Origin: a virus
Strand: one strand, 5' to 3'
Virus record (IMG/VR): IMGVR_UViG_3300027805_000086
Location: 1 to 24,543 of that record
Length of the DNA stretch: 24,543 nucleotides
Of this stretch, positions 1 to 5,868 are shown one piece after another; the stretch's first letter is position 1, and the number at the start of each line of letters is the position of its first letter. The position numbers were made by a program, and so were the translations under genes. Below the pieces are notes generated by a model. It had not been told where the DNA came from and searched no databases. It was given only the letters and a program-made list of their open reading frames with translations.

Positions 1-111
1 GACCGCGAAGACCTGGGCTGGGCCGTTAGCGAGGAGGTTCGCTCGCTCGCATATCAGCTACTCATCGATGAAGCCTTCCGCATGAAGGAGGTAATGGACC
101 ATGCCGCTTGA
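1..111 (+). CDS. C-terminal end of an unidentified phage protein (partial)
   Basis: Reading frame 1 is open from the first base to a TGA at 109-111, giving 36 residues that begin DREDLGW and end KEVMDHAA. The frame overlaps the start of the nuclease gene at 101 by 11 bp, the same tight packing seen throughout the window, which supports it being a real gene end. No function can be assigned from this fragment. A DNA metabolism role is only a guess from the neighbouring nuclease, SSB-like and primase genes. Confidence 0.6.
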   Translation, partial: DREDLGWAVSEEVRSLAYQLLIDEAFRMKEVMDHAA

Positions 112-1213
112 GTTGCGCCCCTCTGCCGCCTCGCGCTGGATCGCCTGCCCAGCCAGCGTGCGCCTGTCGCAAGGCATCCCCGACTCGCCATCAAGTGATG
201 CGGCGCAAGCGGGCACGGCGATTCACGCGCTCGCCGAAGACTGCTACCTCTTCGACGAGGACCCGATGGAATACCTCGGCACCACAAAAGAAGGCGTCAA
301 GCTCGCTCAGTGGCACTGCGAGATGGCACGCGACCACGTTGAGCAGATCCAGGAGGTCGAGGACTTCACCGGAAAGCACACCGTCAAGATTGAGGAGAAG
401 GTCACCTACATCGAGACGCCAGAGGTCACGCTGCGCGGCACCGCCGACGTCATCGGCCTGGGCTGGGACGTCGATTGCCTTGTGATCTGCGACCTAAAGA
501 CCGGCGCCCAATACGTCAATGAGGACTCCGACCAGATGAAGATCTACGCGCTCGGGGCGATTAAGAAATACGGCCTAAGCCTCAAGCACATCGAGCTGCG
601 CATCAATCAGCCTCGCACTGGCGGCCTGCGTATCCATTCGATGACACTCGAGGATCTGCGCAAGTGGGAGGACACCGTGCTGATGCCAGCCATCGACGCG
701 GTAATTGATCCGAACTCGCAGCCTAAGCCATCAGAGAAGGCGTGCCAATACTGCCCAGCCAAGCTCACCTGCCCAGCGCAGGCCGCTGCTTTTGAGCTTG
801 TGGCCGAGCAGGAGCCTGGCATCGTCACTATGAAGAAGGAGGACATCCCCGCAGTAATGCGGCGCCTCTCCGACGATCAGGTCAGCGATCTTCTGGACCG
901 CGCACCCATCGTCGAGGCATTCGTGGACGCGCTCAGGAAACACGCCAAGGAGCGCATGGAGCAAGGGGGCGTCTTGCCAGGATGGCAGCTCGCCCCGAAG
1001 CGCGCCAGCCGTAAATGGATCAACGAAGATAAAGCTAAAGATGCACTTATCAACGCAGGTCTGTCTGTGGATAAGCTGTACATAACTGACTTCATATCGC
1101 CAGCAGAAGCAGAGAAACTGCTGGACAAAGAGCATCGGGGGATTCTTGAAGAGCTGACCAAGAAGGAAAGCTCGGGAACCACCATTGCAAGAGACGCAAG
1201 CCTGCGTCAATAA
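101..1213 (+). CDS. DUF2800 family Cas4/RecB-like PD-(D/E)XK nuclease
   Basis: This 370-residue protein looks like a phage DUF2800 nuclease of the RecB/Cas4 superfamily, expected to act on DNA ends during replication or recombination in the cytoplasm. Visible motifs are the N-terminal SRWIACPAS segment (Cys16), GTAIHALAE with His42, GTADVIG with Asp116, the ICDLKTG strand with Asp131 and Lys133, and a QMKIYALGA helix (Gln145, Tyr149). These match the nuclease core order. Cys215, Cys218 and Cys224 (CQYCPAKLTC), together with Cys16, resemble the four-cysteine Fe-S site of Cas4 and AddB; cluster binding is inferred. The start has an AAGGAGG stretch (about 85-91) ahead of ATG 101. It lies upstream of an SSB-like gene and a primase-helicase, so a role in processing replication intermediates fits. 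The family assignment is firm; the substrate is unknown. Confidence 0.85.
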   Translation: MPLELRPSAASRWIACPASVRLSQGIPDSPSSDAAQAGTAIHALAEDCYLFDEDPMEYLGTTKEGVKLAQWHCEMARDHVEQIQEVEDFTGKHTVKIEEKVTYIETPEVTLRGTADVIGLGWDVDCLVICDLKTGAQYVNEDSDQMKIYALGAIKKYGLSLKHIELRINQPRTGGLRIHSMTLEDLRKWEDTVLMPAIDAVIDPNSQPKPSEKACQYCPAKLTCPAQAAAFELVAEQEPGIVTMKKEDIPAVMRRLSDDQVSDLLDRAPIVEAFVDALRKHAKERMEQGGVLPGWQLAPKRASRKWINEDKAKDALINAGLSVDKLYITDFISPAEAEKLLDKEHRGILEELTKKESSGTTIARDASLRQ

Positions 1214-1258: not shown

Positions 1259-1864
1259 ATGCTTAATCTCTCATCTGGCGGCGGCGGCGGTAACTTTATC
1301 CGCTTCTCACCCGCAGCAAATGCCTGGACTAACTCGAATGGCGAGGAGATCCAGCTCAAGAAGGTCGTCTTCGACATAGACAACGTGCAGACCGGCTGGC
1401 TACAGCTCGGCGTCGGTGTCCGTGACTGGGCGCCTGATGTCGCAACTGGAAAGAAAGGCGCGCAGCCTTCACCAGACCACAAGCGCGGCTTCTCCGTGAA
1501 GTTCTACAACAAGCAGCTCGGCACCTGCGAGTGGAGCAGCAACGGAGTCGGTCCCAACATGGGACTCGAGCAGATTTATCTCAAGTGCGTCGAGGATCGT
1601 AAGTCGATCCCGATGAACGCATCTCTACTGCCCGTCATTGAGTACAAGGGTAGCAAGATGGAGAAGATCGGCAAAGGCACCACGCGCATCCCGCAGTTCG
1701 ATGTAGTCGATTGGATTGCTCGGCCTGCTGGCATGGACGAGGGCGGCGGTGGCGTAGAGGAGGAGTACGCAGCACCTGCACCCTCACCTGCTCCAGCACC
1801 TGCCCGTGCGCCTGCGGCGAAGCCAGCAGCGCAGGCGGCAGCGGATGACGACGAGATGTTTTAA
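1259..1864 (+). CDS. Putative single-stranded DNA-binding protein with acidic C-terminal tip
   Basis: This 201-residue protein has a compact N-terminal domain (about 1-160) rich in strands and aromatic residues, then a linker of alternating Ala and Pro (about 170-193), and ends DDDEMF. A folded domain, a Pro/Ala linker and an acidic tip closing in a hydrophobic residue is the architecture of bacterial and phage SSB proteins, whose tip recruits partner proteins. Phage proteins of this kind commonly sit beside DUF2800 nucleases and primases, as here. The start is ATG 1259; the frame is open upstream to the nuclease stop at 1213, but no better start codon is present and the Shine-Dalgarno is weak. 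The SSB call rests on architecture and neighbourhood, because I cannot confirm an OB fold by eye. Confidence 0.6.
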   Translation: MLNLSSGGGGGNFIRFSPAANAWTNSNGEEIQLKKVVFDIDNVQTGWLQLGVGVRDWAPDVATGKKGAQPSPDHKRGFSVKFYNKQLGTCEWSSNGVGPNMGLEQIYLKCVEDRKSIPMNASLLPVIEYKGSKMEKIGKGTTRIPQFDVVDWIARPAGMDEGGGGVEEEYAAPAPSPAPAPARAPAAKPAAQAAADDDEMF

Positions 1865-1931: not shown

Positions 1932-4040
1932 ATGCAAGCTGAAGAAATTGCAAAAACACTAGGCAATGCCAAGCGAGTAAATGGTCAGTGGCTCGCATCC
2001 TGCCCGGTCCCAGGCCACGGCAGAGGCAACGGAGATAAGAACCCATCACTATCAATCAGCGACGGTGACGATGGAAGACCTCTCTTCCACTGTCACGGAG
2101 GCTGCGATCAGCACACCGTCTTCAACGTCATCCGCGAGCGCGGTCTGCTGCCAGAGCTGGAGCCTCGGCCCGAGCTCCTGTCTCGCATTCAGCCGCCAGC
2201 CATTACCAGGCAGCTCGAGCAGGAATGGTCCTACACCGACGAGGAAGGCGTGGTCCTCTTCATCAAGCAGCGGTATCGCACCACGGACTCGAAGGGTAAG
2301 GACTACAAGCTCATCAAGGTCGATGATGCAGGACGGCGGCACGCCACGATGGGCGATGCTCGGATCGTTCCGTATCGCCTGCCCGAGCTGCTCGATGCTG
2401 TTGGCAAGGGAAGGTTCGTCTACTTGACGGAAGGCGAGAAAGCCGCCGACGCGATCATCAGCCTGGGCTCGGTCGCCACTACATCGCACGCAGGATCAGG
2501 GCACTGGCCCGAGGCAATCACCCAATACTTTGCAGGCGCTAACGTCGTCATCCTTCCAGACAACGACGCGCCAGGATGGAAGTACGCAAAGAGGGCAGCA
2601 GCCAAGATCCTCCCGCTGGCGAAGTCGGTGCGCGTGGTTGACCTGGGCGGCGATGACCTGGGCGACGATGCCTACGAGTGGATCTACAAGCAAGGCAAGA
2701 CGCGCCAAGACCTCGCCGATCTGGTCAAGGGGCAGGCTCCTTTGCAGAGCGAGTCAGAGGTCCAGGTGCCAGAGCGCCTGCGCGAGAAGCCGCAGGCCGA
2801 GGCGCCAGCAGCGCCAGAGTCAGCGGCGCCAGCTCCAATGGCGGCGATGACGGCGGGGAGCGCGAAGGACGCCAATAGCGAACCAGAAGTTTCTGAGACT
2901 GGTTCGCCATTAAAGAGAACCTTCAAGCTCGAAGCCTTCGACGATATCGAGGACGAGCCGGTCGAGTGGCTGATCCATAAAGTGATCCCGAAGAAGGGGT
3001 TCTGTGCTCTTTATGGGCCGCCAGGATCATTCAAGAGCTTCATCGCGCTGGATCTGGCGGCGTCCATTGCAAGGGCAGCCGAATGGTTCGGCCAGGCCGC
3101 CACGCCCACGGTTAATGGTGCAGTTGTCTACATCGCGGGCGAGGGCCACGGCGGCATCGGGGCCAGGATCAAAGCCTGCCGCATCCACCACAACCTGCCA
3201 GAAGGAACGCCGATCTACTTCCTGCGCCACCAGATCAACCTGCGGTCAAGCCTCGAGGACTTCTCAAGCCTCATCTTCGCGGTCAGGGGTCTGGTCCAGG
3301 AGCTTGCCATCAAGATAGATCTCATCGTCATCGACACGCTGGCGCGGGCCTTCGGCGGTGGAAATGAGAATTCCAGTGAGGATATGGGCGCCTTCATCAC
3401 GGCCTGCGGGCACCTCCAAGGTGAGTTTGATTCAGCTCTGATGGTCATCCACCACAGCGGCAAGGACGCGGCAAAGGGTCTGCGGGGTCACTCTTCGCTG
3501 CTCGGAGCCGTGGATACGGAGCTCGAGCTGCTGCGTTTTGACGATCAACCGCGTGGTGTTTTGACCGTCAGCAAGCAAAAGGATGGCGAGGACGGTCTGC
3601 GATTCGGGTTCGAGATGGTCGAGGTAGAGATAGATCAGGACCGCGAGGGAAGCCTAAGCCTTGACGAACCGCGCAAGTCGCTGGCCGTCAGTCCGAGCGA
3701 TGAAGCTCTAAAAAGTAGAGCAGATGAGGCGCGGAAAGTGGGGCTGGATCGCACCGGAAAGGGTAAGAAGCAGGCGATTGCGGTGGATGCCTTGAAGGAT
3801 GTAATTAGTACTAAAGGAGTACATTGGAAGGTTTCAATGGGTGTTAGAAGGTGTGTAAAAGTAGAGCAATGGAGGGATGCTTTTGCTCAAAAAATGGGCA
3901 GTGACGAGGCCGGAACTGGTGCTTTCAGGTCTGCTTGGAAGCGAGTAAGAAGCGATCAGGGTAGGCCGCCAGCAGTTTGTATTGAAGGTGAATGGGTATG
4001 GATAGAAGAACAGAAAGAGCAGAAGTCGGAAGAGTTTTAG
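1932..4040 (+). CDS. Primase-helicase: zinc finger, TOPRIM and RepA-like AAA ATPase
   Basis: This 702-residue protein probably makes primers and unwinds DNA at the phage fork. The N-terminus has a CHC2-like zinc finger (Cys24, His29, Cys54, Cys58). A TOPRIM domain follows, with TEGEK at 166-170 supplying the catalytic Glu and PDNDAPG at 209-215 supplying the metal-binding Asp residues. An Ala/Pro/Glu-rich linker (about 270-325) joins it to a RecA/RepA-type ATPase with Walker A GPPGSFKS (362-369), Walker B IDLIVIDT (462-469) and a VIHHSGKDA motif (505-513). The C-terminal 90 residues look like the winged-helix tail of phage RepA-type helicases (WRDAF and VWIEE segments). An RBS-like GAAGG at 1921-1925 supports ATG 1932. 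The last 250 bp are visibly more AT-rich than the rest. It is followed directly by an iteron array. Confidence 0.88.
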   Translation: MQAEEIAKTLGNAKRVNGQWLASCPVPGHGRGNGDKNPSLSISDGDDGRPLFHCHGGCDQHTVFNVIRERGLLPELEPRPELLSRIQPPAITRQLEQEWSYTDEEGVVLFIKQRYRTTDSKGKDYKLIKVDDAGRRHATMGDARIVPYRLPELLDAVGKGRFVYLTEGEKAADAIISLGSVATTSHAGSGHWPEAITQYFAGANVVILPDNDAPGWKYAKRAAAKILPLAKSVRVVDLGGDDLGDDAYEWIYKQGKTRQDLADLVKGQAPLQSESEVQVPERLREKPQAEAPAAPESAAPAPMAAMTAGSAKDANSEPEVSETGSPLKRTFKLEAFDDIEDEPVEWLIHKVIPKKGFCALYGPPGSFKSFIALDLAASIARAAEWFGQAATPTVNGAVVYIAGEGHGGIGARIKACRIHHNLPEGTPIYFLRHQINLRSSLEDFSSLIFAVRGLVQELAIKIDLIVIDTLARAFGGGNENSSEDMGAFITACGHLQGEFDSALMVIHHSGKDAAKGLRGHSSLLGAVDTELELLRFDDQPRGVLTVSKQKDGEDGLRFGFEMVEVEIDQDREGSLSLDEPRKSLAVSPSDEALKSRADEARKVGLDRTGKGKKQAIAVDALKDVISTKGVHWKVSMGVRRCVKVEQWRDAFAQKMGSDEAGTGAFRSAWKRVRSDQGRPPAVCIEGEWVWIEEQKEQKSEEF

Positions 4041-4043
4041 GCC

Positions 4044-4155
4044 GTGACGAATGGTCGAATCGTGTGACGAATCGTGACGATTCGACCAGCAGGGAAGGGC
4101 GTGACGAATCGTCACAAGGTTATACCTGTGACGATTCGACCACCCAGATTCGACC
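4044..4155 (+). repeat. Iteron/palindrome array downstream of the primase-helicase
   Basis: GTGACGA occurs five times on the + strand (starts 4044, 4064, 4074, 4101, 4128), the last three exactly 27 bp apart. GATTCGACC occurs at 4079, 4133 and 4147 and inverted at 4053-4061. The 14-mer GTGACGATTCGACC is present twice (4074-4087 and 4128-4141). GGTCGAATCG (4053-4062) and CGATTCGACC (4078-4087) form a perfect 10 bp inverted repeat. The array also contains six GANTC sites (4057, 4069, 4079, 4106, 4133, 4147). Such arrays usually bind an initiator or regulator; the position right after the replication gene makes a replication origin or an operator the leading ideas. Confidence 0.85.
4101..4115. 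promoter_or_regulatory. 15 bp palindrome, candidate dimeric protein-binding site
   Basis: GTGACGAATCGTCAC is a perfect palindrome of 7 bp arms around one central base, in the middle of the iteron array. The arm equals the array's direct-repeat unit, so it looks like a head-to-head pair of the same half-site. A dimeric initiator or repressor would be the expected ligand; which protein binds is not visible. Confidence 0.6.
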
Positions 4156-4199: not shown

Positions 4200-4991
4200 G
4201 TGGCAACAAAAAACAAAAAAGTGCAGCAGAAGAAGGGTCGGGTGCCAAGTCCTGGCGGGCTGTCTTATCCAGCGTCCGAGTTCGACAGGTTCAAGGAAGC
4301 GAAGCTGGTGGAACTGGATCGGTTTCGCGCTGAACATGAAGCGAAATGGGGGATTGGAAGAATTAGTACTTTAGTACCTACAGAGTTTCGGGAGAAGTTT
4401 TACGCGCAGTCGGAGAGGGTCTGGGCTGCGCAGAACAGTCAGGATGTGTCGCGGATGGCGGCGGCGTGCGACGGCATGATCCGGGCCTACAAAGCGATGG
4501 ATGCCTGGGCGATTGCCGAAGGCATTGAGCCCATCACGAAGGTCCATGCAATTGAAGCGGATACCCATCTCGGGATCATGGTCATAGTCAACGATGAGGC
4601 TGACGCGGTTCAGTATCAAGCACTGCGCCAGGATGTGCGTCAGGTCTGGACGGTTGCCGAGATCGTTGAGCTGGTCAAGGCAGGGATCGGACAGGCGATC
4701 TGGGAGATGAAGGAGCAACTGCCAGTTCGCGGGACTGTTGTTGCGGTGCAGCAGGATTCGGCAGCGCGTTCGGCAGATTCGGCAGAAGGGTTCTGCAACA
4801 GCGCAGGCGATGGCAAAAAGGCCGCTGGCGAAGCAGTGGGCCGCGATGAAGACCGCAAGCGGCCATTGGCGAAGCCGGTGGCCTCGGGCGGGGGATCGGG
4901 ATTCGAGGACCTGGAGAACGATCTGGACCTTGATGAAGCGGTCGATCTGCCTAAAATGTGGAACGCGCCTCCTGAGGCGAAAAAGCGCTGA
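4200..4991 (+). CDS. Phage protein of unknown function before the TerS-like gene
   Basis: I do not recognise a family. With the start chosen here the protein is 263 residues, beginning MATKNKKVQQKKGR. GTG 4200 is preferred because a GAGGT Shine-Dalgarno lies at 4190-4194, five bases upstream; an in-frame TTG at 4188 would overlap that site. The N-terminus is Lys-rich. The body (about 25-175) is predicted helical with many Glu, Arg and Trp residues (EFREKFYAQSERVWAA; AEIVELVKAGIGQAIWEMKE). The C-terminal third is low complexity, with an Ala/Ser/Asp/Gly-rich stretch, and ends in an acidic segment (EDLENDLDLDEAVDLP). It lies between the iteron array and a TerS-like gene, so an array-binding regulator or packaging accessory factor is possible but unproven. 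Confidence 0.75.
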   Translation: MATKNKKVQQKKGRVPSPGGLSYPASEFDRFKEAKLVELDRFRAEHEAKWGIGRISTLVPTEFREKFYAQSERVWAAQNSQDVSRMAAACDGMIRAYKAMDAWAIAEGIEPITKVHAIEADTHLGIMVIVNDEADAVQYQALRQDVRQVWTVAEIVELVKAGIGQAIWEMKEQLPVRGTVVAVQQDSAARSADSAEGFCNSAGDGKKAAGEAVGRDEDRKRPLAKPVASGGGSGFEDLENDLDLDEAVDLPKMWNAPPEAKKR

Positions 4992-5495: not shown

Positions 5496-5670
5496 CGTTT
5501 CGCGCATGGCGCTGCCCATAAAAGCAGCAAAACAGCGGTCTGGCACGCTCTGCGACTTAACATAATAGCTATCGTGCGAAGTGTTTTCTGTAAGCTGCGC
5601 GTAAGTAATGAATGAAATCAAGGACTTACAAGCAGTCCACAGAATCCGCAGATGCGCGAATTTGTCCACA
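5457..5670 (+). other. Cluster of DnaA-box-like sequences (candidate origin)
   Basis: Two perfect TTATCCACA boxes lie at 5457-5465 and 5481-5489, followed by CAGTCCACA (5633-5641) and TTGTCCACA (5662-5670), all in the same orientation. The first two are inside the TerS-like gene, 24 bp apart, and both use the TTA Leu codon, which is uncommon in this GC-rich context. The others are in the non-coding gap. Between them lies a more AT-rich stretch around 5555-5575. This resembles a DnaA-dependent origin, though no binding has been shown. Confidence 0.55.
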
Positions 5671-5868
5671 GCGCCGCGAGCGCCAGGCCGACGCGGGGCA
5701 GCGGACTCTGCCAGCGGACGGCGCGGACACCCCCCCCGGTCGGCGAACGGCGGGGGCGGGCGACGGCGGCGCCGAACACCTACCGAATTCACATATCGCA
5801 TAAAAACCGCGCCATAATCGCGCAGGAATCACGCATCCCCACCCCCCTATCCCCCATCACGTTAAACC
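5496..5868. other. 373 bp gap between TerS-like gene and TerL
   Basis: No convincing gene is present; the short ORFs here have poor starts and compositionally biased Arg/Pro-rich products. The left part carries two DnaA-box-like sequences. The middle (about 5675-5780) is strongly GC-rich, with a small hairpin (GGCAG 5697-5701 with CTGCC 5708-5712), a run of eight C (5730-5737) and a G-rich stretch (about 5749-5772). The right part turns AT-rich and holds a candidate promoter. Functions consistent with the position are an origin, a packaging (pac/cos) site and a late-operon leader. Confidence 0.6.
5788..5818 (+). promoter_or_regulatory. Candidate sigma70-type promoter upstream of TerL
   Basis: TTCACA (5788-5793) matches the -35 consensus at 5 of 6 positions and CATAAT (5813-5818) matches the -10 at 5 of 6. 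The spacer is 19 bp, longer than the optimum. It would start a transcript about 45 bp before the TerL start and could drive the packaging/head operon. This is based only on consensus matches. Confidence 0.3.

Follow-up and report, generated by a model that had tools for sequence, protein, structure and literature searches.

The DNA analyzed here (the window) is a whole 24.5-kb viral contig from IMG/VR (IMGVR_UViG_3300027805_000086, 24,543 nucleotides). Its co-directional genes encode, in order, an exonuclease, a probable single-stranded DNA-binding protein (SSB), a primase-helicase and, beyond the repeat array considered here, a conserved protein whose gene starts at 4200, TerS, TerL and an SU10-type portal (Table 1). 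The array sits at the early/late junction of this gene string, and TerS is coded about 0.9 kb 3' of it. The second gene is called a probable SSB gene because the equivalent gene of the CRP phages is annotated as ssDNA binding. The N terminus of the primase-helicase is of the DnaG/Toprim type, and the helicase part matches AAA_25 and has, by sequence, RSF1010 RepA as its sole solved relative (PDB 1g8y, E = 4.4e-4). No other part of the enzyme is as poorly conserved as the hypervariable Ala/Pro-rich linker (residues about 270 to 330) between its primase and helicase domains. In the model of the 4200 protein (pTM 0.42), the N-terminal part is helical and is accompanied by a small alpha/beta part. 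TerS and TerL are separated by a 373-bp noncoding gap (5496 to 5868) with very C-rich runs (CACCCCCCCCGG). Complete relatives of the phage are 33 to 36 kb long (about 35 kb), and 127-bp terminal overlaps in three of them indicate that these are circular assemblies. One relative (L085; G004, positions 28425 to 29128) and its equivalents in the complete relatives carry a minus-strand cassette for a RuvC-like protein and an XRE-like small regulator. Neither the phage nor its complete relatives gave a match to DNA polymerase A, DNA polymerase B or a tyrosine integrase, a nucleotide search against named phages gave no match, and no host was found among GTDB genomes.

Table 1. Features at and around the repeat array, with positions in the window
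Feature	Position	Strand	Remarks
PD-(D/E)XK exonuclease gene, replication module	101..1213	+	No covariation with units
Probable ssDNA-binding protein gene, replication module	1259..1864	+	Assigned by position; no covariation with units
Toprim primase - RSF1010-RepA-like helicase - C-terminal winged helix, 702 aa, proposed initiator	1932..4040	+	
Codons 611-691, predicted winged-helix domain, proposed iteron reader	3762..4004	+	AlphaFold2 model; covariation
Codon 667 (Ser), predicted third helix	3930..3932	+	Best unit-type correlate of the 702 residues
Iteron array, proposed replication origin	4044..4155	.	Repeat counts; layout kept in relatives
Direct unit GTGACGAATGG	4044..4054	+	
Hairpin 1	4052..4088	.	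Arms TGGTCGAATCGT (4052-4063) and ACGATTCGACCA (4077-4088); unit GTGACGAATCGTG (4064-4076) between
Hairpin 2	4101..4142	.	Unit GTGACGAATCGTCAC, core AAGGTTATACCT, inverted unit GTGACGATTCGACCA (4128-4142)
Core of hairpin 2	4116..4127	.	AAGGTTATACCT; family form AAGGGTATACCT; the part of the array that hardly varies within the window's group
Outlying inverted unit GATTCGACC	4147..4155	+	
Conserved gene without assigned function, 3' of array	4200..4991	+	No covariation with units

The initial annotation described five GTGACGA repeats, three of them 27 bp apart, and four GATTCGACC half-sites, and these counts are correct. GTGACGA starts at 4044, 4064, 4074, 4101 and 4128 on the plus strand, with the 27-bp spacing among the last three, and GATTCGACC lies at 4053 (minus strand), 4079, 4133 and 4147; a sixth GTGACGA is present on the minus strand (4109 to 4115). 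The 15-bp palindrome also stands (GTGACGAATCGTCAC, 4101 to 4115, with 7-bp arms and a 1-nt centre), whereas the direct repeat is 15 bp rather than 14 bp long (exact copies of GTGACGATTCGACCA at 4074 to 4088 and 4128 to 4142) and the inverted repeats measure 12 bp rather than 10 bp (4052-4063 with 4077-4088, and 4105-4116 with 4127-4138). The array is real and far above chance, with 30 surplus repeated 8-mers compared to a maximum of 15 elsewhere in the 24,202 112-bp windows of the contig. The core of hairpin 2 occurs once in the contig, and the single-strand fold of the segment is better than that of shuffled sequences (z = -4.6 as DNA and -3.2 as RNA). Six GANTC sites do fall between 4057 and 4151, as described, but the idea that they place the origin under the control of CcrM methylation was dropped, since the arrays of relatives hold anything from 0 to 6 of them. 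The contig as a whole has 86 GANTC sites compared to 108 +/- 12 expected, and those in the array are a by-product of the presence of GAATC/GATTC inside the unit of this phage.

Searches of IMG/VR with several primase-helicases yielded 157 loci (gene end plus downstream DNA) with 101 distinct arrays. An array stands directly 3' of the primase-helicase gene in nearly all relatives. The recurrence of the repeats in related phages with an intact gene order, which the initial annotation had put forward for comparison, was borne out, as nearly all of the 101 arrays keep one layout despite sequence drift: direct units are followed by an inverted unit that completes hairpin 1 and, after a short spacer, by a unit, the core and an inverted unit that form hairpin 2. 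Scripted core patterns matched 98 of the 101 arrays, including L186, where the match is at a false place although the array is visible by eye. L050 and L078, with slightly different cores, were missed, and L116 has lost the layout, perhaps through misassembly. Arrays of the window's group have the core AAGGGTATACCT and those of a second group GAGTCTA..GACTC. In L038 and L189 an enzyme of group 1 is combined with a core of group 2, and the core of L169 is a compensated one, CTGTCTATAAGACAG. The hairpin stems are maintained by compensatory change.

The unit itself varies, with about 14 types among the 101 arrays: GTGACGAAT/GGTCGAAT, GTGTCAAAT, GGGACAAAT, GGTCAAAT, GGTAACAAA, GGTTACAAA, GGTTAACA, GCGACAAA, GGAGACAAA, ATCAGAAA, ATCGGAAA, CTTACAA and CGTTAC. 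Copies within one array change in concert, most plainly in L080 (ATCAGAA) compared to L138 (ATCGGAA). The concert is imperfect, as the window's array mixes GTGACGAAT and GGTCGAAT units. In nine genomes, full units are confined to the array locus, with only isolated matches to the shortest patterns elsewhere, at or below chance, and no second, distant cis element was seen. Helicase-adjacent arrays were not found in the distant phages MW202711, Mae-JY30 (scan limited to DNA upstream of the gene) and Salinibacter M1EM-1. The stop codon of the primase-helicase gene lies inside the array in L019, L024 and L124, making the putative origin partly coding, and the L124 gene crosses the core hairpin. 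In four other loci (L029, L039, L051 and L077) the array lies about 100 bp farther from the stop codon; the added DNA contains another stretch resembling a unit or a hairpin and looks like the remains of an earlier origin copy or of an insertion.

Array distances, calculated from shared repeated 6-mers with the core excluded, were compared with protein distances in 45-residue windows by partial Mantel tests in which the distance of the enzyme body was held fixed. For residues 605 to 695 the partial r was 0.53 over all arrays, 0.70 in group 1 and 0.63 in group 2 (each reached in 0 of 2,000 permutations). Over all arrays, windows starting at residues 571 to 661 gave values of 0.44 to 0.54 and those starting before residue 571 gave -0.12 to 0.08; group 1 alone was noisier, with -0.22 to 0.30 before residue 571 and up to 0.73 in the C terminus. 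When enzymes with bodies more than 94% identical are paired, the C termini differ by 5% if the units are alike (n = 125, maximum 17%) and by 50% if they are unlike (n = 213). Among the protein segments tested, unit identity covaries only with the C-terminal 100 residues or so of the primase-helicase. Over the whole set, none of the separate proteins tested follows the units: partial r was -0.11 for the 4200 gene (0.01 in its first window, although this lies beside the array), -0.08 for TerS (all windows below 0), -0.06 for SSB, 0.06 for the exonuclease and -0.06 for the XRE-like regulator, for which 101 near-identical pairs have unlike units. All five were dropped as candidate readers of the unit. 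Within group 1 alone the 4200 gene gave 0.28, compared to 0.70 for the C-terminal domain. The 'wH' protein set, a mixture of several small proteins, was left out of these results.

AlphaFold2 predicts a helix-strand-helix-helix-strand-strand winged-helix topology for residues 611 to 691, with residues 663 to 673 as the third helix and pLDDT values of 75 to 91 in most 10-residue blocks. Foldseek gave no significant match to the C-terminal model (best E = 0.11), and its upper matches, at E values of 0.1 or worse, include winged-helix proteins. Of the 702 residues, the one most informative about unit type is residue 667, in this predicted recognition helix of the domain (adjusted mutual information 0.74, compared to at most 0.50 in residues 1 to 579). 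Residues 666 and 667 are KT in 22/22 enzymes with GGTTACA units, KM or KV in 17/17 with GGTAACA, KK in 5/5 with GGGACAAA, DK in 7/7 with GGAGACAAA and RA in 6/6 with GTGACGAA. An exception is the window itself, which has Ser667 where L003 has Ala, though their units are identical.

A second, roseophage-like family shows the same organization with further unit types. Cultured Roseobacter phages carry the module with helicases about 30% identical to that of the window; exonuclease, SSB, primase-helicase, iteron/hairpin and a gene without assigned function are present in CRP-811, CRP-823, CRP-821 and CRP-831, and CRP-406 has a variant of the module. The units are ACTACAAA in CRP-811/823, GTATAAA in CRP-821/831 and GGCTGGAAA in CRP-406, and the cores of the CRP phages are AAACCCTTTAGGGTTT or AAACCCTAAGGGTT. 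CRP-811/823 and CRP-821/831 share the core CCCTTTAGGG and have helicase bodies that are 99% identical, with C termini that are 31% different. CRP-823 (L198) and CRP-821 (L200) are both recorded on host strain FZCC0197, yet their origin address types are unlike. Of 59 distinct roseophage-like contigs, 49 match the scripted core (CCTWTAGG and close variants), and the set has 25 different top 7-mers, some of which are register variants of one unit. Windowed partial r values are weaker in this family (0.18 to 0.31); in pairs with bodies less than 15% different, the C-terminal difference rises from 0.13 where the units are alike to 0.42 where they are unlike. The paper that describes the CRP-822-type roseophages, which share the module order but only about 30% helicase identity with the window, seems to contain no description of their origin, as the word 'repeat' is absent from it and 'origin' occurs once (PMC12629253).

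Judged from sequence comparison, the repeats are very probably the site where the phage begins to copy its DNA. The initial annotation had named the helicase and the 4200 product as possible ligands of such an origin. The covariation of array and C-terminal domain strongly supports the former, and the latter is probably not the reader, as it does not covary with the units. We consider it likely that the predicted C-terminal winged helix of the phage's own primase-helicase reads the iterons, with the hairpin serving in opening or priming and a host polymerase taking over. Binding of the iterons by this domain, to which the covariation points strongly, would assemble the hexameric helicase of RepA type on the unit-flanked hairpin beside them. 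Hairpin 2, with a conserved TA-centred core between flanks that vary with the iteron, would then be opened or extruded, and the Toprim primase domain may lay the first primer on the single strand so exposed. A host DNA polymerase would extend the primer, as suggested by the lack of matches to polymerase families A and B. The origin reading also rests on the match of layout and protein to the precedents of P4 alpha, pRN1 and RSF1010. In 8/8 genomes, coding-strand GC skew at fourfold-degenerate sites is below zero in the last plus-strand gene 5' of the array and above zero in the first gene 3' of it. As a sign of an origin this turn is suggestive but modest, coming from related genomes and fading within a few kb in many of them. 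The comparisons show, at the level of sequence, that the iteron 'address' and its apparent reading domain either are exchanged jointly as one cassette or change in parallel, with no change in the remainder of the enzyme.

The array could instead be a transcriptional operator between the replication and the packaging/late genes, with the C-terminal domain regulating the downstream operon, alone or alongside a role at the origin. The position at the early/late junction would suit this, and the same covariation would be expected. However, in nine genomes the units are essentially at one locus, a pattern more in keeping with a single origin than with a regulon; the gap holds no promoter-like site, the XRE-like regulator does not covary, and a regulator carrying its own helicase and primase would be unusual. 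We therefore regard an operator, which the initial annotation had also suggested for the late region, as unlikely, though the array may have some accessory part in regulation. Part of the correlation may be hitchhiking, because the C-terminal domain adjoins the array and close relatives differ in both at once. Recombination that swaps the neighboring array along with the 3' end of the gene, without any functional match, would be an improbable explanation for the whole of it. The start of the 4200 gene is about equally near and has an r of 0.01, copies inside the array change in concert, the pair 666-667 sorts with the units across differing backgrounds, and the pattern recurs in the roseophage-like family.

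In cosB/cosN layouts, repeats accompany a palindromic core, and the array resembles these and lies near terS and terL. A packaging site (cos or pac) read by the small terminase is nevertheless very improbable, as the units covary with the primase-helicase and not with TerS (partial r -0.08 for TerS). The least probable reading is that an attenuator, a processing site or a decoy acts here as RNA, within the transcript. The stable RNA fold (z = -3.2) and the compensated stems could speak for it, but G-U pairs in the stems are not preferred on the plus strand (60/1,612 pairs compared to 79/1,598 on the minus strand), which favors a role at the DNA level; the direct repeats outside the stems still follow the array's unit, and the plus strand has no terminator-like site.

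If the array is the origin, these data offer a sequence-based route to the origins and initiators of a large group of small environmental phages that seemingly borrow the host polymerase. They also provide a natural series of protein-DNA recognition, with dozens of iteron types matched to one domain of about 90 residues and contrasts of nearly a single residue, such as KT/GGTTACA compared to KM/GGTAACA. It is possible, though we hold this only tentatively, that the address types are replication-specificity groups under diversifying selection, in which phages with a common host repeatedly change iteron and reader jointly and thereby keep coinfecting relatives, satellites or defence decoys from using or poisoning one another's origin. 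CRP-821 and CRP-823, of different types on the one host strain, would fit this idea. With cultured phages of swapped types available (CRP-811/823 and CRP-821/831) and one host strain, origin specificity and incompatibility between phages can be tested directly.

Origins whose iterons are read by an initiator with fused primase and helicase are already known. What appears to be undescribed in the open-access literature searched is their combination with a helicase of the RepA type, a conserved-core hairpin flanked by iterons and an address subject to extensive modular change. In geminivirus origins, virus-specific iterons lie beside an invariant stem-loop, and the iteron-reading domain of the rolling-circle HUH Rep follows the iterons. 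The phage arrays are similar in their variable iterons, invariant hairpin element and proposed reader domain that tracks the iterons, but the proteins appear to be unrelated. The alpha protein of satellite phage P4 combines a Toprim-type primase, a helicase and a C-terminal winged helix that binds the origin repeats in one polypeptide (summarized in PMC4234260). The phage enzyme has the same three parts, the winged helix being predicted, and the covariation supports binding of the iterons by the C-terminal domain as in P4 alpha; the helicase is RSF1010-RepA-like instead of SF3. P4 has two separate iteron loci, ori and crr, whereas here the iterons are at one locus only (nine genomes), flank a hairpin with a conserved core and vary greatly in sequence between relatives. 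In the crenarchaeal plasmid pRN1, a stem-loop origin lies directly 3' of the primase-helicase-winged-helix gene (ORF904), its structure but not its sequence is well kept in relatives, and similar origins were proposed for some phages (PMC4234260). The phage locus agrees in the place of the stem-loop and in the keeping of structure rather than sequence, but pRN1 has an archaeo-eukaryotic primase, an SF3 helicase and no iterons, unlike the Toprim/DnaG-type primase, RepA-like helicase and iterons found here. The oriV of RSF1010 (RepA/RepB'/RepC, ssiA/ssiB) also has iterons plus hairpins (PMC4234260), together with the RepA-type helicase that the phage enzyme resembles. In RSF1010, three separate proteins read the iterons, unwind the DNA and prime synthesis, whereas in these phages the three functions would be fused in one protein.
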